DNA of 64,000 nucleotides from an uncultured Archangium sp. (GTDB lineage: Bacteria; Myxococcota; Myxococcia; Myxococcales; Myxococcaceae), in the NCBI GenBank assembly GCA_903905455.1, contig CAIVGN010000029.1, positions 1 to 64,000 on the forward strand, given 5' to 3'. Below are positions 3,225 to 28,170 of this stretch, piece after piece. Made by a program: the position numbers and the translations under genes. The notes beneath the pieces were generated by a model, which saw nothing but the letters and a program-made list of their open reading frames with translations, did no database searches and was not told where the DNA came from. How positions within the stretch are numbered: the stretch's first letter is position 1; each line of letters opens with the position of its first letter.

Positions 3225-4264
<1,040 letters not shown>

Positions 4265-4268
<4 letters not shown>

Positions 4269-5008
4269 AGCGCCTGTCGGTGCTGCTCCTGCTCGCGGGG
4301 TGCACGAAGGAGCCCGAGGGCCCGGTGTGTGGGCTCCACGCGGCCTCCGAGCCGGTGCTGCTCCAGGGCAAGCGCGACGTGGCGTTGTCGGTGGGGGCGC
4401 GGTTGATGCCTTCCGATCGCATCGACGCCCAGGGCTTCGCGTTGCTCGAGTGCTTCGGCGGCGCGATCAGGGTGCTCGACGACGAGAAGGTCACCGTGGG
4501 CGAGCTGACGGAGTCGAAGATCGAGGCGACCACCATTCCCCGCTTCGTGCTCAAGGACGGCAAGCCGGTGAAGGCCACCATGCTCGCGCCCTCGATGCTG
4601 CCTCGCTACTCGGACAACCGCTTCACCCCGGCCAGCGCGTTCACCGCGGGCAGCGACCCGACCTCGGCCGACTACTTCAAGGCCTTCTTCACCCCCAACG
4701 GCATCGAGAACATGACCTCCGCGCCGCGGGAAGACGGGCCGGCGCGCCTGCCGCCTCCCTCGCAGCGGGTGAAGGTGTCGCGCATTCACGCCGGGCCGTT
4801 GGGGCAGGGCGGGGCGCGCCTCGAGGTCGAAGACGAGGTGGTCTTCGCCGAGACCGACGAGCTGACCACCGCCGCGCTCCCCGAGGGGCACACGTATGAG
4901 CTGGGCCGGACGGTGCGCCTGGTGCTCCCCGACGGCGCCGAGGCCACCCTGGTGCGCGACGGGGTGAAGACCGAGCTCGACGGCCCGATGGATCTGCGCC
5001 TTCGCTAG
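4265..5008 (+). CDS. Hypothetical lipoprotein, FecR-like region
   Basis: A 247-residue exported protein beginning [12 protein letters not shown], a short lipoprotein signal peptide with lipobox LAGC. The TTG at 4265 was chosen because GGAGGG at 4251-4256 sits eight bases upstream; a GTG at 4256 is the alternative. The start overlaps the mnmA stop by four bases. The middle ([17 protein letters not shown], then [13 protein letters not shown]) and the C-terminal [13 protein letters not shown] resemble FecR-type beta repeats that sense or bind at the envelope, but the match is weak. Probably anchored in the periplasm or outer membrane; function unknown. Confidence 0.8.
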
Positions 5009-5028
5009 TCTGTACTAGGGTTCGGCCG

Positions 5029-5646
5029 ATGCGGCTTTCCCGTACCGTCGTCCTGGGCTGCCTCGCCGGGCTGCTGGGTGCTTCCGTCGTCTCCTGTGGT
5101 CAACCGATGTCCGGGCCGAAGGCCTGCAGCGCCGCAACGTGTGAGGGGTGCTGCGCCGAGTCGGGCGACTGTCTCGCGGGCACCGCGGTCTTCGAGTGCG
5201 GCGCGGGCGGCGCGGCGTGTACGAGCTGCGCCTCCAACGAGGTCTGCCAGGCGGGCGCCTGCGGGCCGTTCGAAGGCGGTGACTACGACGCGAGCTTCCC
5301 CGCGCTGGCCGACGCCTCGGTGCGCCTCGACGCGGGCGTGTACCGGCCGCCGGACTCAGGCGTGGTGGTGCCCGACGCGGGCACGGTGGACGCCGGGCCC
5401 ATGAACGTCAGCTACTCCGCCCAGGTGCAGCCGATCTTCGACGCGCGCTGCATCGCCTGCCACCCGTGGAGCTACGACACGATCGTCAACGTCAACGCGC
5501 GCATCACCCCCGGCAACTTGAACGCCTCGGCCATCTACACGCGCACCCTGTCCGGAGACATGCCGCGCTTGGGCGGGGCGCCGCTGACCGGCACCCAGCA
5601 GGTGCTCCTGCGCGACTGGATCCTCAACGGGGCCCCACGAAATTGA
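5029..5646 (+). CDS. Lipoprotein with C-terminal c-type cytochrome motif
   Basis: 205 residues. A signal peptide ends in lipobox VVSC (Cys23). Next comes a cysteine-rich segment (residues 33-78, about ten Cys), then an Asp/Pro-rich linker with repeated PDAG and DAG. The C-terminal domain contains one haem-attachment CIACH (Cys141, Cys144, His145), with a possible axial Met in SGDMPRLGG. This layout is typical of myxobacterial surface cytochrome lipoproteins, where the C-terminal part resembles the small cytochrome module of planctomycete-type proteins. Electron-transfer partners are not encoded nearby. An inverted repeat CTAGT-CTGT-ACTAG lies just upstream at 5005-5018. Confidence 0.82.
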   Translation: MRLSRTVVLGCLAGLLGASVVSCGQPMSGPKACSAATCEGCCAESGDCLAGTAVFECGAGGAACTSCASNEVCQAGACGPFEGGDYDASFPALADASVRLDAGVYRPPDSGVVVPDAGTVDAGPMNVSYSAQVQPIFDARCIACHPWSYDTIVNVNARITPGNLNASAIYTRTLSGDMPRLGGAPLTGTQQVLLRDWILNGAPRN

Positions 5647-5670
5647 CGCCCTGATACAGCGCGCTACTTT
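5643..5670 (+). promoter_or_regulatory. Sigma-70-type promoter candidate for SPOR gene
   Basis: TTGACG (5643-5648), a 16-bp spacer and TACTTT (5665-5670). The -35 box overlaps the stop codon of the cytochrome lipoprotein. The predicted transcript starts near 5677, upstream of both possible starts of the next gene. Found by eye only. Confidence 0.45.
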
Positions 5671-5715
5671 CGTGATGCGCCCACCGCAGAGCTGATCGTG
5701 GGCGCCCAGGACCAC

Positions 5716-6498
5716 ATGCGCGACTCCCACCGCCTCAAAGAGAAGTACGAGCTCTCGCTCGACAACCGCCAGATCGTCACCATCACCGTCGCCTCGCTCG
5801 TGGTCCTGGGCGGCGTGTTCATGTTGGGGGTGGTCGTCGGCAAGAAGCTCTCGGCCGAGATGGTGGCCGGGCAGCAACAGCAGCCCACCGATCTCCTGGG
5901 GCAGCTCGATCGCAAGACCGACGCCCTCGAGAACGTGAAGGCCGACGCGGCGCTCACCTTCCAGGACGAGCTCACGCGCCAGGCGCCGACCCTCGTGGCC
6001 CAGGCCCCGGTCATCAAGCCCATCGAGGCTCCCAAGCCCGTCGCCGAGGCTCCCAAGCCCGTCGAGCCGCCGAAGCCCGTCGAGGTGGCCGTCGCCCCGA
6101 AGCCCGAGCCGGTGAAGCCGGAACCGGTCAAGCCCGCGCCGGAAGCGAAACTGCCCGAGACCCCGAAGTCGGAGCCCGTGGCCACGCGCACCGTCGACGG
6201 TGGTGGCCTCAAGGAAGCGTTCGGCAAGGTGCAGCGCGCGCCCGCCGAGGCCGCGGCAGATGGCTCGTGGACGCTGCAGCTCTCGGCCTACCAGGACAAG
6301 GCCGAGGCCGATCGCTTCGCCGCGGGCCTGCGCGACAAGGGCTACGCCCCATACATCATCGAGGCGGTCATCCCGGGAAAGGGCACCTGGTACCGCGTGC
6401 GCATGGGCCGCTTCGCGTCGAAGGACGCGGCCTCGCGCTACATGGTCGACTTCCGCCGCGAGACGGCGATGAACGCCATCGTCACCGCGGCGAACTGA
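5716..6498 (+). CDS. SPOR-domain inner-membrane protein
   Basis: 260 residues. A short cytoplasmic N-terminus (MRDSHRLKEKYELSLDNRQ) leads to one membrane helix at about 20-42, then a Pro/Lys/Glu-rich periplasmic linker (repeats of PKPV and EPVKP). The C-terminal SPOR domain begins at about residue 180 with WTLQLSAYQDKAEADRFAAG and ends with WYRVRMGRFASKDAA. SPOR domains bind denuded septal peptidoglycan, so a role in division or envelope remodelling is likely. An in-frame GTG at 5698 is an alternative start. The upstream promoter candidate at 5643-5670 suggests its own transcript. Confidence 0.9.
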   Translation: MRDSHRLKEKYELSLDNRQIVTITVASLVVLGGVFMLGVVVGKKLSAEMVAGQQQQPTDLLGQLDRKTDALENVKADAALTFQDELTRQAPTLVAQAPVIKPIEAPKPVAEAPKPVEPPKPVEVAVAPKPEPVKPEPVKPAPEAKLPETPKSEPVATRTVDGGGLKEAFGKVQRAPAEAAADGSWTLQLSAYQDKAEADRFAAGLRDKGYAPYIIEAVIPGKGTWYRVRMGRFASKDAASRYMVDFRRETAMNAIVTAAN

Positions 6499-7116
6499 TC
6501 ACCCCTCGCCGTCGGGGTTCTTCGTCCACTTGTCGACGTTGCCGTCGCCGTCGAGATCTTCACCGATGCGGTCGACCTGGTTGTTTTCCCAGTACTCCCA
6601 GTAGTCGACCTTGCCGTCCGCGTTGGTGTCGCGCTCTTTGCGGACGATCTGGCCCTTCTCGTAGAAGACCCAGAGTGACGGCTTGCCGCTCGACGACAGG
6701 TCGCGCTCTTTGCGCACCACGAGGCCCTTCTCGTAGAAGATCACCTCGTCGACCTTGCCGTCGAAGTCGAGATCGAGCGCCTCGCGGCTGATCTGCTCCT
6801 TCTCGTCGTACTGCCGGGCGATGTCGACCTTGCCGTCCCAGTTGATGTCGAGGTCCTTGCGGGCGATGCGCTCGACGTCCTTGCCCTCGGCGTTCTTGGC
6901 GACGACGGTGTAGGTCCACACGTCGGTCTTCTTGTCCTTGTTGAGGTCGAACTCGGCGACCTTCTCGTCGCCCGACTGCTTCTGCCGGATGTTCTCGGTG
7001 ACCTGGTCGCCTTCGGTGGTGGTGGGCTTCTTCTCGCCCGACTCGGTGGTGGCACAGCCGGCGAAGGTCAGCGCGGCGCCCAGCAAGGTCATCCTGAACG
7101 TCTTGAAGCAGGTCAT
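6499..7116 (-). CDS. Lipoprotein with six Ca-loop-like Asp repeats
   Basis: 205 residues. The start ATG at 7116 is preceded by GAGGG. The signal peptide ends in lipobox FAGC. After a charged linker come about six repeats of 20-25 residues built on a DxDxDGxxD loop: DLNKDKKTDVW, DINWDGKVDIAR, DLDFDGKVDEVIF, DLSSSGKPSLWVF, DTNADGKVDYWEY and DLDGDGNVDKW. The loops resemble EF-hand/dockerin calcium sites; the fourth has lost its acidic residues. Convergent with the SPOR gene (directly abutting) and divergent from the RHH gene 43 bp away. Likely a calcium-dependent surface protein; function unknown. Confidence 0.85.
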   Translation of the reverse strand: MTCFKTFRMTLLGAALTFAGCATTESGEKKPTTTEGDQVTENIRQKQSGDEKVAEFDLNKDKKTDVWTYTVVAKNAEGKDVERIARKDLDINWDGKVDIARQYDEKEQISREALDLDFDGKVDEVIFYEKGLVVRKERDLSSSGKPSLWVFYEKGQIVRKERDTNADGKVDYWEYWENNQVDRIGEDLDGDGNVDKWTKNPDGEG

Positions 7117-19508: not shown

Positions 19509-20561
19509 TCACTGCTCCGGCGTGGGCAGCCCGGCCTGGCTGAGGCGCACGAACAACTGCGAGAGCACGAAGAGCGCGAACGAGGCGTCTTCGATGTGCG
19601 CCGCGCCGCGCTGGGCCCGGGTCCACGCGTCCAACACGTCCCGGCCATGGAGCCCGAGGAGGAACGCCTGGTGCGCCACCGACGCGTCGCCGGCGAACGC
19701 CAACCCCCGCTGCAGGGTCTCGATGCTGGTGCGCACGCAACCGTCGAAGTCACCCGCGGCGAATGCGCCCTCGGCGACGCGCGCGAGATCGATCAACGCC
19801 GCCGGGGCGAGCGCCGCGATGGGACCCAGCACCGGCTTGGTGAAGGGCGCGGGCAGCGGCTCGGGGGCCGGCTGGGTGACGAGGTGCTCCTGCACCTGGG
19901 CCTCGAGCGACGCGCCCACGTCGCGCGAGAGCGAAGGCGTGGGCGCCGAGGGCCGGGGCTTCATCGAGGGCACGATCTTCCGGGCCCGCAGGTCCTTGAT
20001 CACCAGGCGGATCATCGCCTTCATCGCGTCCAGCACGCCGTCGCCGCTCATGGCGATGGTCTCGAAGTCAGGCACGTTGCGCCGGTTGATGAGCGCCCGC
20101 ATCTGCGCCACGGGCACCGCGTTCACCAGGTCGCGCTTGTTGTACTGGATGACCAGCGGGAACGAGTCGAGGCCCATGCCCTGCTCGGCGAGGTTCTCCT
20201 CGAGGTTGGCCATCGACTCGCGGTTCGCGTCTTCGGCCCCCGGGTTCGAGTCGGCGACGAAGACCACGCCGTCCGCGCCCTGGAGCACCAGCTTGCGGGT
20301 CGCGTTGTAGAAGACCTGGCCGGGCACCGTGTAGAGCGCCAGCCGCAGCGCATAGTCGCCGACCTTCTCCACGCGCACCGGCAGGAAGTCGAAGAACAGC
20401 GTGCGATCGGCCTCGGTCGGCAGCGTCATCAACTCGCCGCGCAGCGAGGGCTTCACCGACTCGTAGATGCGCTTGAGCGTGGTCGTCTTGCCCGAGAGGC
20501 CGGGGCCGTAGAACACGACCTTCGCGGCGATCTCCTTGGCCATCACGTTGACGGTGCTCAT
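19509..20561 (-). CDS. MglA-family GTPase with C-terminal extension
   Basis: 350 residues; canonical MglA is about 195. P-loop GPGLSGKT at 19-26, the MglA-specific switch TVPGQ at 78-82 (Thr replaces the usual Asp of DxxG), and NKRD at 141-144. The extra 150 residues (about 200-350) have a Pro/Ala-rich linker and a helical region with no known motif. MglA proteins set polarity and motility direction. The start overlaps the stop of the flavoprotein by four bases, as the last gene of the purM-purN-flavoprotein-GTPase operon. A paralogue rather than MglA itself. Confidence 0.9.
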   Translation of the reverse strand: MSTVNVMAKEIAAKVVFYGPGLSGKTTTLKRIYESVKPSLRGELMTLPTEADRTLFFDFLPVRVEKVGDYALRLALYTVPGQVFYNATRKLVLQGADGVVFVADSNPGAEDANRESMANLEENLAEQGMGLDSFPLVIQYNKRDLVNAVPVAQMRALINRRNVPDFETIAMSGDGVLDAMKAMIRLVIKDLRARKIVPSMKPRPSAPTPSLSRDVGASLEAQVQEHLVTQPAPEPLPAPFTKPVLGPIAALAPAALIDLARVAEGAFAAGDFDGCVRTSIETLQRGLAFAGDASVAHQAFLLGLHGRDVLDAWTRAQRGAAHIEDASFALFVLSQLFVRLSQAGLPTPEQ

Positions 20562-22021: not shown

Positions 22022-22632
22022 CAGAGTGCCTCCACGAGCTGGACCAGCCGGCCCGATTGCGTGACGTGACCGCGGGCGATGGCCTGCACCACCGCGGGGT
22101 ACAGCCGGTGCTCTTCGGCGTGAATGCGGGCCCCCAGGCGGGCCTCGTCGTCACCGGGCAGCACCTGCACCGCCGCCTGCGCGATGATCGGGCCGGTGTC
22201 GGTGCCCTCGTCGACGAAGTGCACCGTGCACCCCGCGACCTTCACCCCCGCGTCGAGCGCCTGCTTCACCGCGTGCAGCCCGGGGAAGGACGGGAGCAGG
22301 GCGGGGTGCAGGTTGAGCACCTTGCCCGGGAAGGCGCGCAGGAACGTGGGCGTGACCAGCCGCATGTAGCCGGCCAGGCAGACGAGCTCGAGCTTCCGCG
22401 CGCTGAGCGCCTCGACCACCTGGGCGTCGAAGGACTCGCGGGGGCCGGCGGTGCGGTGATCGATGACCACCACCTCCACGCCCGCCGCCCTGGCGCGCTC
22501 GATCACCCGCGCTCCGGGCACGTTGCACACCAGCAGCTCGACGCGCGCCGGGCTCCCCGCGACGTTCAACGCGTCGACGAGGGACTGGAAGTTCGAGCCG
22601 CTGCCCGAGGCGAGCACCCCCACGCGCATCAT
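22021..22632 (-). CDS. purN: Phosphoribosylglycinamide formyltransferase
   Basis: 203 residues, cytosolic folate-dependent GAR transformylase, third step of purine synthesis. Motifs: [17 protein letters not shown] near the start, [19 protein letters not shown], the catalytic [12 protein letters not shown], and [15 protein letters not shown] holding the catalytic Asp. The first of two adjacent ATGs, at 22632, overlaps the purM stop (ATGA); the second is at 22629. Coupled to purM upstream and the flavoprotein downstream. Confidence 0.95.
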
Positions 22633-23663
22633 GAGACGACGATGGCCTCCGCCTCGGCGCCGGGAGTTCCGTTTTCGATGGACCCCACGTCCCAGGCTTG
22701 CAGCCCGCGCGCGGTGAGCAGCTCGAGCGTCGCCTTCACGTCGGCCGGCGCCACCACCACCGTCATGCCCAGGCCCATGTTGAAGGTGCTGAACATCTCG
22801 GCGCGCTCGACCTCGCCCAGCTTCTGCAGGAGGTCGAAGATCGGGGCCCGCTTCCAGCTCGCCTCGCGCAGCACCGCCCGAAAGCCGTCGGGCAGGCACC
22901 GCGGCACGTTGCCGGGCAACCCGCTGCCGGTGATGTGCGCCATGCCCTTGATCGCGACCTTCTCGCCCAGGGCAAGGATGTCCTTCACGTAGATGCGCGT
23001 CGGCTCGAGCAGCGCGTCGCCCAGCTTGATGCCTTCGACCGTGTCGTTGAGCGAGAGCCGCGCGTCCTCGAGGATGCGCCGCGCCAGCGAGTAGCCGTTG
23101 GAGTGCAGCCCCGACGAGGCGATGCCGATCACCCGGTCACCCGCGACGATGGTCTTGCCGTCGATGATCTTCGAGCGCTCGACGATGCCCACGGCGAAGC
23201 CCGCCAGCTCGTACTCGCCGGGCACGTAGAACCCCGGCAGCTCGGCGGTCTCGCCGCCCAGCAGGGTGCAGCCGGCCTGCTCGCAGCCCTTGGCCACCCC
23301 GGCGATCACCTTCACCGCGCGCTCCACGTCGAGGCGGGCGGTGGCGAAGTAGTCGAGGAAGAACAGGGGCTCGGCGCCGCTGGTGAGCACGTCGTTGACG
23401 CTCATGGCCACCAGGTCGATGCCCACCGTCTCGTGGCGGTCCATGGCGAAGGCGAGCTTGAGCTTGGTGCCCACCCCGTCGGTCCCGCTGACCAGCACCG
23501 GCTCCTTGTACTTCCCGGGAGGGATCGCGAAGAGGCCACCGAAGCCACCCACCCCGGAGAGCACCTCGGGGCGGCGCGTCTTCGCGGCGTGGGGCTTGAT
23601 GCGCTCGACGAGGGCGTCACCGGCCTCGATGTCTACTCCAGCCTGCTTGTAGGTCGTTCCCAC
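22629..23663 (-). CDS. purM: Phosphoribosylformylglycinamidine cyclo-ligase
   Basis: 344-residue AIR synthetase, fifth step of purine synthesis. It begins [19 protein letters not shown]. Motifs: [41 protein letters not shown] and [19 protein letters not shown] start at 23663, giving the family's usual N-terminus; longer frames are not conserved. First gene of the four-gene minus operon, divergent from the adenylate cyclase with an 85-bp gap. Confidence 0.95.
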
Positions 23664-23748
23664 GGGCGCGGCTTGTACCCCTTCGCTCCGGGCCGCACCA
23701 CGATTGAGGAGGTGTCCCACACCGCAGCAGGTAGTCTCCCGCGCGCGC

Positions 23749-26064
23749 ATGCGCCAAGTCCTCTCGAAGCGACGTTACGAGTTGCTCGCCCTGGGTCTCT
23801 TCATCGTCTTCGGCCTGGTCCACGTGCAGACCTCCGAGCCGTTGATGGGCCTCACCGAGAAGGGCAGCCTGGTGCACCGGCTGATCCAGAACCTCGACGG
23901 GCGGGTGACCACCCAGTTGTTCCGCCTTCGGGGCTCCCGGCCGGCCCACCCCGACGTGGTGGTGGTGGAGATCGACGAGCGGGGCGCCCAGCGCTACGGC
24001 CTGTGGCCCTGGCCCCGTGAGCTCGTCGCCACCGCCCTCGACAAGCTGCTCGACGCCGACGCGAAGGTGATCGGCCTCGACATCGCGTTCACCGACCAGA
24101 CCCAGGTCAACCCGCGAGAGCAGGCCTGGCTCGACGCGCTCCACCAGGTGCCCTCGCTGCCCACCGAGCTGGCGCCGCTCCAGTCCGAGCTCGAACAGCG
24201 GCTGCTCCACTCGCCCGACGAGCGCCTCGAAGCGGTGCTCCGCAAGGCTGGGCCGCGCATCGTCCAGGGCGCGATCCCCTTCGGCTCCAGCGACGCCGCC
24301 TCGTTCTCCGCCGCCCAGCGCGAGGCCTTTCGCACCGCCGCTGCGGCGTCGATGATCACCAGTATTCCGGGCAAGGTGAAGGGCTCGTCGTACCCCCTCG
24401 ACGGCGTCGAGGCGTACCCCTACGTGGGGGTGCTGGCGCCGCTGCCCCGCTTCGCTGCCACCGGGTCACCCCTGGGGCACTTCGTCACCATTCCCGACAT
24501 CGACAGCACCATTCGCCGCTCGCCGTTGCTGGTGCGCCTCGACGAGCCGCCGGGCCTGCTGCCGTCGCTGGCGCTGCAGGTCATCGCCCGGCAGCTCGAC
24601 GCGCAGATCATCCCCGTGGTCGACGAGCACAAGCTGGCGGCGATCCGCCTCGCGCGCCCCGCGGGCGACGTGGTGGTGCCCATCGAGTTCGAGAGCCCGA
24701 TGACGCTCATCAACTATCCCGGCGACTACAAGTCGTTCCACCGGGAGAGCATCGTGGACGTGCTCGACGGCAAGGTGGGCAAGGACCAGCTCGCGGGCAA
24801 GGCGCTGCTGGTCGGCGTCACCATCATCGGCAGCAGCGGAGACCAGCGCGTCACCCCGTTCTCCGAGTTCACCTCCGGCGTCTTCACCCACGCCTCCCTG
24901 GTGTCCAACGCGCTGACCGGGGACTTCCTGAACCGCCCGGTGTCCCTCAACTACCTCGAGCTGGGCCTGATGCTGGTGCTGGGCCTCGCGGTGGCGGTGA
25001 TCACCCCGCGGCTGCGTTCGTTCGTGGGGAAGATGGTCTTGATGGTGGCGGTGATCGCCGGCTTCACCGCCGTGACCTACGTGCTCTTCGTCAACGGGCT
25101 CAAGGTGAACTGGGTGGTGCCCACGGTGCACCTCGCCGCCACCGCCTTCGGCACCATCTTCCTCGGCTACCTCTCGCTCGACCGCGAGAAGCTCAAGATG
25201 CGCAGCACCTTCAGCCGATACCTGGGCGAAGACGTGATGGACGTGGCCCTCGAGAACCCCGAGCGCCTCAACCGCGGCGAAAAGCGCGAGATGACCGTGC
25301 TCTTCTCGGACATTCGCGGCTTCACCTCGCTCTCGGAACACATGTCTCCCGAGAAGCTCGCCGACTTCATCAACCAGTACCTCTCGCCGATGACCCAGAT
25401 CGTGTTCGACGAGAAGGGCACCCTCGACAAGTACATCGGCGACGCGGTCATGGCCTTCTGGAACGCGCCCCTCGACCAGCCCGATCACGCCCTGCGCGCC
25501 TGCCGCGCCGCGGTGCACATGCTCGAGCGCCTCGAGGAGCTCAAGGTGGTGTGGCGCAAGAATGGCTACCCCCAGCTGGAGATCGGCATCGGCATCAACA
25601 CCGGGCAGATGGTGGTGGGGAACATGGGGTCTGACGTGCGCGTCGACTACACCGTGCTCGGCGACTCGGTGAACCTCGGCAGCCGCCTCGAGGGCACCAA
25701 CAAGGAATACGAGACCCGCACCATCATCAGCGAGTGGACCCGCGCCGCCGTGAAGGACGGCATCGTGACCCGCCGCCTCGGGGCCGTGCGCGTCAAGGGC
25801 AAGAAGGTGCCGGTGGGCATCTACGAACTCCGCGGCCTCGGCACCCCCAACGAGACAGACGCCCGGGCCATCGCCGCCTTCGAGGCCGGGCTCGTGGCCT
25901 CCACCCAGCGGCACTTCGACGAGGCCATCGCGCTCTTCAACGAGGTGCTCACCCTGTGGCCCGGCGACGCCCCCACGCGCAACTACCTGGCCGAGCTCGA
26001 GACCTTCCGGGTGCGCCCGCCCCCCCCCGATTGGGACGGCGTCGTGTCGCTGAAGACCAAGTGA
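23749..26064 (+). CDS. CHASE2-domain class III adenylate cyclase
   Basis: 771 residues. One N-terminal helix (11-28), a periplasmic CHASE2 sensor (about 30-395), three closely spaced helices (402-419, 428-447, 455-475), then a cyclase domain. Metal ligands lie in [10 protein letters not shown] (Asp521) and [11 protein letters not shown] (Asp565), and transition-state Asn/Arg in [12 protein letters not shown] (Asn642, Arg646). A TPR-like tail follows at about 705-750. It makes cAMP from ATP in response to an unknown extracellular signal. The ATG at 23749 was chosen; an upstream frame to 23704 is less likely. Followed after 55 bp by a CRP-family regulator. Confidence 0.93.
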
Positions 26065-26119
26065 GCGCCGGTTCCGTAATTGACGCCCCCCGGTTTGCGG
26101 GTGAGAGTCGGGGACTTTC

Positions 26120-26770
26120 ATGAGTGCCGAAAAAGCCCTGTTTCAGCGGTTTGGGAAGGACATCCCCGCGGGGACGCTGCTCTTCCGTGAAGGTGAGCCC
26201 GGCAAGGAGATGTACGTCATCCAGTCCGGCCGCATCGCCATCACCAAGAAGGTGCGTGACGTCGAGAAGGTGCTCGCCGTGCTCGGACCCGGTGAGTTCT
26301 TCGGCGAGATGGCGATCATCTCCAACAAGCCGCGCAACGCCTCGGCCTCGGTCGAAGAAGAGGCGCGCCTCCTGGTCATCGACCCGCGCACCTTCGAGGC
26401 GATGATCCGGGGCAACTCCGAGATCGCCGTGCGCATGATCAAGAAGCTCGCCGAGCGCCTCTCGGACGCCGACGCGCAGATCGAGAACCTGCTGCTCTCC
26501 GACCCCGGCAGCCGCATCGTCCACCACATGCTCAACCTGTGTCAGACGCGCGGCAAGCAGACGGAAGAGGGCATCGAGGTCGACTTCCCGGTGCGCGATC
26601 TCCCCCGCGAGCTCGCAGTCGGGGAGCCGGCGATTCGTTTCATGGTGAACAGGCTGGAGAGGGCGGGTTTGGTCGAGGTCTCGGGCGATCGCGTGACGGT
26701 GAAGGACACGGCGCGGCTCTTCGATTTCCTCAGGTATCTCGAGATGAAGTGGAAGTTCGGGGAACTCTGA
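26120..26770 (+). CDS. CRP/FNR-family cyclic-nucleotide-binding regulator
   Basis: 216 residues. N-terminal cyclic-nucleotide-binding beta-barrel (about 10-115) with REGEPGKEMYVIQSGRIAI and the phosphate-binding cassette FGEMAIISNKPRNASASV. The Arg in PRNAS is the residue that pairs with the cyclic phosphate. A dimerisation helix follows, then a winged-helix DNA-binding domain with PRELAVGEPAIRFMVNRLER. Directly downstream of an adenylate cyclase and 3 bp before a cyclic-nucleotide phosphodiesterase, so cAMP is the likely ligand. Start ATG at 26120. Confidence 0.93.
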   Translation: MSAEKALFQRFGKDIPAGTLLFREGEPGKEMYVIQSGRIAITKKVRDVEKVLAVLGPGEFFGEMAIISNKPRNASASVEEEARLLVIDPRTFEAMIRGNSEIAVRMIKKLAERLSDADAQIENLLLSDPGSRIVHHMLNLCQTRGKQTEEGIEVDFPVRDLPRELAVGEPAIRFMVNRLERAGLVEVSGDRVTVKDTARLFDFLRYLEMKWKFGEL

Positions 26771-26773
26771 GCC

Positions 26774-27529
26774 TTGAAACTGAAAGTGTTGGGCCCACAC
26801 GGCGGTGAGCTTCCCGGGTGCAAGAGCACCTGTTTCCTGGTCGACGACCGCATGGCGATTGATGCCGGCGCGCTGACCTCGATGCTCGAACTGCCGGCGC
26901 TGGCGAAGGTCGACGACATCCTGCTGACGCACTCGCACTTCGATCACATCAAGGACCTGCCGATGATGTCCGACGTGGTCGTCGGCCGTCGCGACAAGCC
27001 CGTGGTCATTCACAGCAACTCGGAGTGCATCGAGACGCTGCAGAAGAACCTCTTCAACAACGTCCTCTGGCCGGACTTCACCAAGATCCCCACCAAGAAG
27101 AACCCGGTCTTCAAGCTGCGCAGCTTCCGCGCCGGCTCGAACATCAAGGTGGGGCCCTACAGCGTGAAGTCGGTGCTGGTCTCCCACCCGGTCGAGTCCT
27201 GCGGCTACGTCATCTCCGATGGCGAAGTGTCCATGGCCATCTCGGGTGATACCGGACCCACCGAGAAGTTCTGGAAGGTGCTGAACAAGGTCGAGAACCT
27301 GAAGCTGGTGCTCGTCGAGTGCAGCTTCCCCAACCAGCTCCAGGCCCTGGCGGACATCTCGGGCCATTTCACCCCGCAAACCCTCGAAAAAGAGCTCGAG
27401 AAGTTCGATCGGCGGGGGGCCGAGGTGCTGCTGTACCACCTCAAGCCGGCGTTCGTGGCCCAGCTCAAGAAGGAAGTGCGCCATTTGCCGGTGCACGTGT
27501 CCGAACTGGGCGAAGAATTCGACTTCTGA
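26774..27529 (+). CDS. 3',5'-cyclic-nucleotide phosphodiesterase, MBL fold
   Basis: 251 residues of the metallo-beta-lactamase fold, class II cyclic-nucleotide phosphodiesterase type. The metal-binding motif THSHFDH (52-58) is complete; further ligands are in VLVSHPVESCGYV, AISGDTGPTEKF and the late LYHLKPAF. Family members cut cAMP to AMP. TTG start at 26774, three bases after the CRP stop, so the genes are almost certainly co-translated. Cytosolic. Other MBL-fold hydrolases remain possible, but the cyclase and CRP neighbours favour this role. Confidence 0.85.
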   Translation: MKLKVLGPHGGELPGCKSTCFLVDDRMAIDAGALTSMLELPALAKVDDILLTHSHFDHIKDLPMMSDVVVGRRDKPVVIHSNSECIETLQKNLFNNVLWPDFTKIPTKKNPVFKLRSFRAGSNIKVGPYSVKSVLVSHPVESCGYVISDGEVSMAISGDTGPTEKFWKVLNKVENLKLVLVECSFPNQLQALADISGHFTPQTLEKELEKFDRRGAEVLLYHLKPAFVAQLKKEVRHLPVHVSELGEEFDF

Positions 27530-27543
27530 TAACCGCGCGTTCC

Positions 27544-28170
27544 GTGTCGGCCGCCCCTCTCGTCCTCGGAATTGCTGGTGGTACTGCCTCAGGCAAGACC
27601 ACCGTCGCGCGTAAGCTCCACGAAGCGTTCGCCTCGCGCGTCGCCTTCATCGACCAGGACTCGTACTACCGGCCCCTGGATCACCTCAGCCTCGAAGAGC
27701 GGCGCGAGGTGAACTTCGATCATCCCGACGCCTTCGACTCCGACCTGCTGGTCGAGCACGTCAAGGCGCTCAAGGCCGGCCACGCCATCGAGAAGCCGGT
27801 CTACGACTTCGTCAGCTCGACCCGGCAGCCGCGCACCGTCACCGTCAACCCGGCAGACCTCATCCTCATCGAGGGCATCCTGGTGATGCACATGGACCCG
27901 CTGCGGGCCCAGATGGACGTGAAGATCTTCGTGGAGACCGAAGACGACGTGCGGATCATTCGCCGCCTCACGCGCGACATCAAGGAGCGCGGCCGCGACT
28001 TCGACCACGTGATCCACCAGTACTTCGCGCACGTGCGGCCCATGCACATGGCCTTCGTCGAGCCCTCCAAGCGCTGGGCCGACATCATCGTGCCGCACGG
28101 CGGCAACAACGACACGGCCATCGACATGCTCGTCGGCGCCATCAAGGCGCGGCTCGTCAAGGCGAAGTGA
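27544..28170 (+). CDS. udk: Uridine kinase
   Basis: 208 residues, pyrimidine salvage enzyme phosphorylating uridine and cytidine. P-loop GGTASGKTT (12-20), QDSYYRPLDHLSLEERREV, NFDHPDAFDSDLL and IEGILVMHMDPLR match the family throughout. GTG start at 27544, 14 bp after the phosphodiesterase stop, so probably in the same transcript. The 3' end overlaps that of the convergent DUF4340 gene by 14 bp. Confidence 0.95.
   Translation: MSAAPLVLGIAGGTASGKTTVARKLHEAFASRVAFIDQDSYYRPLDHLSLEERREVNFDHPDAFDSDLLVEHVKALKAGHAIEKPVYDFVSSTRQPRTVTVNPADLILIEGILVMHMDPLRAQMDVKIFVETEDDVRIIRRLTRDIKERGRDFDHVIHQYFAHVRPMHMAFVEPSKRWADIIVPHGGNNDTAIDMLVGAIKARLVKAK

Follow-up and report, generated by a model that had tools for sequence, protein, structure and literature searches.

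The window analyzed here, which covers 64 kb of a draft genome of 8.6 Mb whose closest named relatives, judged by the phosphodiesterase described below, are Archangium/Myxococcaceae MAGs (75–88% identity), carries three adjoining open reading frames on the + strand. These encode a CHASE2 - (TM) - class III adenylate cyclase of 771 aa (23749..26064; Pfam CHASE2 at residues 46-413, Guanylate_cyc at residues 511-687, conserved catalytic residues), a CRP-fold cyclic-nucleotide receptor of 216 aa (26120..26770; Pfam cNMP_binding and AF2 model) and a class-II (PDE1-type) metallo-beta-lactamase (MBL) cyclic-nucleotide phosphodiesterase (PDE) of 251 aa with a TTG start (26774..27529; PDEase_II and AF2 model). 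As the original prediction had it, the gaps between them are 55 and 3 bp. On one side, the cyclase gene has purM as its divergent neighbour (22629..23750, - strand), which, together with purN, is kept in many relatives. On the other side, the uridine kinase gene udk (27544..28170, + strand; NCBIfam udk) lies 14 bp 3' of the PDE gene, an arrangement encountered among the inspected loci in the window's closest relatives only. All features described in the following are located on the + strand unless indicated otherwise.

An extracellular sensor had been proposed at the front of the locus, and the first gene indeed encodes a CHASE2 sensor domain predicted to be extracytoplasmic (23884..24987; Pfam PF05226, 3.1e-45), followed by a cyclase catalytic domain (25279..25809; Guanylate_cyc in Pfam, 7e-23). 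Both domain content (Pfam) and key residues (alignment) identify a class III adenylate cyclase with CHASE2: the adenine-type Lys in DKYIGD and Thr in YTVLGD, both metal Asp and the transition-state Asn and Arg are present. Cyclase copies found in situ carry both metal Asp, the Lys, the Thr and the Arg at every covered position; the Asn is lacking in a single copy. The conserved adenine-type Lys/Thr pair rules out a guanylate cyclase identity. Judged by these residues, the enzyme would be expected to make cAMP from ATP.

The second gene product matches cNMP_binding (Pfam, 8.9e-24), and its cNMP domain (26162..26410) contains an intact phosphate-binding cassette, FFGEMAIISNKPRNASA, in which G62, E63, M64, R72, A74 and A76 are invariant over 33 sequences. 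The cNMP fold with the cassette Arg and Ser/Thr that characterizes CRP/FNR receptors was thus recovered by Pfam, alignment and AF2 model alike, and the ligand is most plausibly cAMP. In the AF2 model (pLDDT 85.8) the protein adopts a CRP fold with the winged helix retained. M. tuberculosis CRP is the best PDB match, and CRPs of mycobacteria and corynebacteria head the structural matches; the low TM-scores against CRPs probably reflect a different interdomain hinge in the modelled protein. Whereas M. tuberculosis CRP and C. glutamicum GlxR, the closest solved structures, share the CRP fold with a cNMP pocket, identity is ~25-27%, and the receptor departs from them in its recognition-helix contacts and its C-terminal helix.

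The third gene product matches PDEase_II above the cut-off (Pfam, 8.6e-20), and PDEase_II is also matched by 34/34 homologues. Its metal site HSHFDH (26930..26947) provides H53, H55, D57 and H58, which, like H138, D159, H198 and H222, show no or almost no variation among 34 sequences. Downstream, the motif FNNVLWPDFT (27053..27082) is the counterpart of yeast PDE1 FNDLIWPDLT in a phmmer alignment to 4ojv, with N95, P100 and F102 invariant and W99 and D101 nearly so in the same 34 sequences. The AF2 model (pLDDT 97) ranks yeast PDE1 (4ojv) first, with a TM of 0.83 by query length, and B. subtilis YhfI is the second-best solved match. Above-cut-off profile, HxHxDH and PDE1 fold accordingly all assign the protein to the PF02112 class-II PDEs. 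RNase Z and PhnP were considered as names for the MBL protein and rejected, their profiles being weaker and far below cut-offs while the PDE1-type FN..WPD motif is present. With this, the expectation that catalytic and ligand residues are intact in all three proteins was borne out (D, D, K, T, N and R in the cyclase, R72 in the receptor, the metal ligands in the PDE).

The family assignment suggests 3',5'-cAMP as the PDE substrate. Alternatively, the enzyme might insulate the receptor by removing a nucleotide other than 3',5'-cAMP: cGMP/cCMP/cUMP, 2',3'-cNMP released during RNA decay, or RNA ends. A precedent comes from the cyaD1-clr locus of S. meliloti, where SpdA had been predicted from its locus to end the cAMP signal and proved specific for 2',3'-cNMPs (PMC4222275). 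This mis-prediction is a direct warning for the present assignment, though the window PDE belongs to another class. The structural neighbours of the PDE model moreover include RNase Z, PhnP and Apyc1, whose substrates differ, and substrates of MBL-fold PDEs are varied in general. Against this reading, which we regard as improbable, stand the PDEase_II matches of the window protein and all its homologues, the PDE1-specific motif, and the finding that the class-II PDE relatives C. glutamicum CpdA and M. tuberculosis Rv1339 lower cellular cAMP (PMC7026483, PMC9293780).

The locus had further been described as a self-contained circuit, a view that does not hold at the level of the genome. A profile search returned 18 class III cyclase domains and 43 cNMP-domain matches, and the PDE of the locus is the only class-II PDE (PDEase_II) encoded, class III phosphodiesterases standing outside this count. 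Since many cyclases and cNMP domains face a single class-II PDE, the pool of cAMP on which the PDE acts is probably a shared one. To our knowledge, which receptor matters in this myxobacterium, and how cAMP is cleared, are largely open questions. The same inventory bears on a closed one-operon circuit, in which the cyclase feeds a classical CRP transcription factor activated by cAMP and signalling is terminated by the PDE. Gene order, short gaps and intact domains are in line with such a circuit, but the number of cyclase and cNMP domains elsewhere in the genome speaks against its being closed, and together with the observations on cyclase loss, promoter-like element and DNA-contact residues presented below it leads us to consider this explanation unlikely.

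In order to assess gene-order conservation, which the original prediction itself had named as a check, we inspected 60 loci spanning the phylum, picked by receptor or PDE matches. In 50/60 loci the receptor gene is followed by the PDE gene on the same strand at a distance of -4 to +125 bp, and a CHASE2 cyclase is found 1–180 bp upstream of the receptor in 35/60 and 1.8–3 kb upstream in four. The receptor–PDE pair therefore passes this check, and all three genes occur together in most lineages. Order conservation extends to loci of 15 families in the phylum to which the window belongs, which makes the locus neither a chance arrangement nor a local oddity; chance adjacency is ruled out by the phylum-wide order. 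For the same reason, the notion that such co-location is uncommon is wrong inside Myxococcota, throughout which the genes for cyclase, CRP-like protein and PDE are repeatedly met in this order. The receptor and PDE genes frequently overlap by 4 bp, which suggests that the two are probably translationally coupled. Across 195 genomes of the phylum, in a count made by hand from search tables and ignoring kinship, receptor and PDE were both found in 148 and neither in 32, with the receptor only in 11 and the PDE only in 4.

Exceptions to the pairing were also encountered. In g31, a genus taken for Anaeromyxobacter-like, the receptor gene is divergent from purM-purN and its cassette is intact (e.g. 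L065 (G031), 4010-6825); most members are devoid of both PDE and CHASE2 cyclase, and because the receptor persists in this situation its coupling to the PDE is not obligatory. L092 (G190:C143, 2470-5643), in which the cyclase gene is followed by the PDE gene after ~115 bp with no receptor gene, is the only inspected locus where the receptor is the missing piece. Separately, we observed that in the reduced 2-2.7 Mb genomes of one family (L057 and L094; G143, G144) the receptor is located apart from the PDE, which has diverged (33-35% identity).

The cyclase behaves differently from the receptor–PDE pair. On a tree of 99 concatenated receptor and PDE sequences, a quick one in which some rows are long, the presence or absence of a neighbouring cyclase requires 11 changes, at least 5 of which are forced by the starred branches, and as few changes as observed were obtained in 0/500 shuffles. 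The cyclase is widespread in outer families, and cyclase-less members are nested inside genera such as g5 and g19, so that the pattern is most simply explained by losses. In most cyclase-less loci of the window's family, purM directly adjoins the receptor gene. The cyclase is thus a dispensable piece of the locus which was lost several times while receptor and PDE remained.

The 55-bp region between cyclase and receptor genes contains a promoter-like element, TTGACG - 17 nt - GAGAGT (26080..26108), located 11 nt before the receptor ATG and brought out by comparison of relatives. Within the window's family, the region upstream of the receptor carries TTGAC[C/G], followed after ~17 nt by TTGACT, TTAACT, CTAACT or GAGAGT, located roughly 8–12 nt ahead of the ATG. 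TTGAC at positions -50..-28 was found in 45/49 distinct upstream regions of this family versus 0.8 expected in shuffles, a count that is not an independent test because the 49 regions are related. The element occurs both with and without an upstream cyclase, and similar elements were encountered in f2, f3 and f31; shared ancestry alone would not account for TTGAC being kept in a short intergenic region amid changing surroundings. A generic sigma-70 scan called no promoter here, and measured against E. coli promoters the -10 part is weak. Given the short distance to the ATG, the receptor transcript is possibly leaderless.

A promoter-like element of its own would explain how the receptor–PDE pair outlives loss of the cyclase, and it leaves the proposed single operon unproven. 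Same strand and short gaps stand as predicted, whereas a single transcription unit is doubtful in view of the conserved element and of cyclase loss without loss of the other two genes; these same two observations weigh against the one-operon circuit introduced above, while read-through from the cyclase gene into the receptor gene is possible. A search for a palindromic operator near the element yielded inverted repeats in single genera only, none being conserved between genera. Such genus-specific repeats were seen at L129-L131 (upstream of the receptor gene), L045 and L139, for example ATATCGC..GCGATAT and AATTTCCGG.CCGGAATTT; they overlap or abut the TTGAC box and are possible operators.

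We then turned to the DNA-reading region of the receptor, which sets this protein apart from the CRPs. HTH_Crp_2 scores 22.9 bits, below the curated cut-off of 27, and is matched at E<=0.01 in 31/33 receptor relatives. The equivalent of the recognition helix (residues 169-181, EPAIRFMVNRLER; 26624..26662) is the least conserved part of the receptor. In an alignment made by eye, the E. coli DNA-contact residues R180/E181/R185 correspond to E169/P170/F174, so that the canonical CRP contacts are absent from the receptor and are variable or acidic in its relatives; in many families an acidic residue takes the place of R185. Across the phylum, the recognition helix has an entropy of 2.07 bits, whereas the cNMP domain reaches 0.94; in a CRP paralogue encoded by the same genome and used as a control, the relationship is inverted (0.74 versus 1.47; motif RPETxSR). 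Since this control spans fewer families than the receptor set, the two regions are best compared by their ratio within each protein. The wHTH carries a net charge of <=0 in 32/33 sequences. By contrast with the recognition helix, a C-terminal helix (residues 197-214, 26708..26761; 197-213 in the AF2 model) with the phylum consensus FLEFLEMKxKFGD is conserved at near the level of the cNMP domain (entropy 1.14).

These features can be read in more than one way. A classical CRP transcription factor would fit the wHTH fold kept in the AF2 model, the HTH_Crp_2 matches in most relatives and the VGEPA[IV]R stretch that opens the recognition helix and is near-invariant within the window's family; it does not fit the absence of the canonical contact residues or a recognition helix that is the least conserved segment of the protein. 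Alternatively, the receptor could be a CRP-like protein without DNA recognition, that is, a cAMP-dependent protein-interaction subunit (PKA-R-like logic) whose C-terminal helix acts on a partner, possibly the PDE. The inverted entropy relationship, the acidic R185 position, the non-positive wHTH charge and the conserved C-terminal helix all point in this direction, and we regard the idea as possible, if only tentatively held. Its partner is hypothetical, and within the window's family VGEPA[IV]R is retained (position 174 being free) and R163, R173, R178 and R181 are mostly kept, a pattern that fits a wHTH of other specificity. The near-invariance of VGEPA[IV]R within the family likewise weakens the simple form of a degenerate, dead HTH. 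It is therefore possible that the receptor binds DNA with a specificity other than that of CRP.

Taken together, we consider it fairly probable that the locus represents an old myxobacterial cAMP module with a constant receptor–PDE core and a dispensable CHASE2-cyclase front end. The core would consist of the CRP-fold cAMP receptor and a cytoplasmic class-II PDE under their own promoter, and the front end of the CHASE2-sensor adenylate cyclase present in most lineages. A periplasmic signal or membrane state would act on CHASE2 and alter cAMP synthesis; the receptor would be bound by cAMP from the neighbouring cyclase and from many others, at a level set by the PDE; and the output would be either the reading of DNA with non-CRP specificity or an action on a protein partner. 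A phylum-conserved receptor–PDE pair that holds the only class-II PDE of the genome is a natural place to look for cAMP clearance, and repeated cyclase loss makes it possible to compare closely related organisms that have or lack the dedicated input. With its unusual recognition helix, the receptor is also a test case for a CRP-fold protein acting as a cAMP effector without CRP-type DNA reading. Along these lines, one could suppose that the receptor retained its dimerisation helix and cAMP pocket but no longer reads DNA in the CRP manner, and that cAMP output in Myxococcota runs via a protein-interaction helix. We view this proposal as rather doubtful; if true, it would define a new type of bacterial cAMP effector, fixed beside its own PDE throughout the phylum while cyclases come and go.

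Literature searches, which left most subscription journals outside their reach, retrieved no description of the myxobacterial locus. The nearest counterpart is the S. meliloti cyaD1-clr-smc02178-spdA locus, which likewise combines a CHASE2 receptor-type cyclase, a CRP-family cAMP receptor and a putative PDE (PMC4222275, PMC5498481). In contrast to the window PDE, which is of class II and probably coupled to the receptor gene, SpdA belongs to the class III metallophosphoesterases and acts on 2',3'-cNMP. Clr has been proven to be an activator that binds DNA, whereas the recognition helix of the window receptor is non-canonical.

With respect to the PDE, the window protein resembles the atypical class-II enzymes C. 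glutamicum CpdA, M. tuberculosis Rv1339 and B. subtilis YhfI, characterized by bacterial cAMP degradation, in its MBL fold and [T/S]HxHxDH motif; unlike these, which are filed under PF12706 (PMC9293780), it also passes the PF02112 cut-off. It shares the PDEase_II profile, HxHxDH, FN..WPD and GH(L/F)(S/T)P with yeast PDE1 (4ojv), its best structural match, and with Vibrio fischeri CpdP, but is shorter than both at 251 aa and has no evident secretion signal. V. fischeri CpdP is a periplasmic enzyme.

Finally, the surroundings of the module show recurrent features. The divergent orientation of purN-purM relative to the module is an old arrangement, the two genes also being located nearby in f10, f24 and f25, and a link between purine synthesis and cAMP signalling via this neighbourhood is possible. 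Near purN-purM, the window further contains a gene for an Arf/Ras-like small GTPase (MglA-like; 19509-20561, - strand), which stays close to the module in several related loci.
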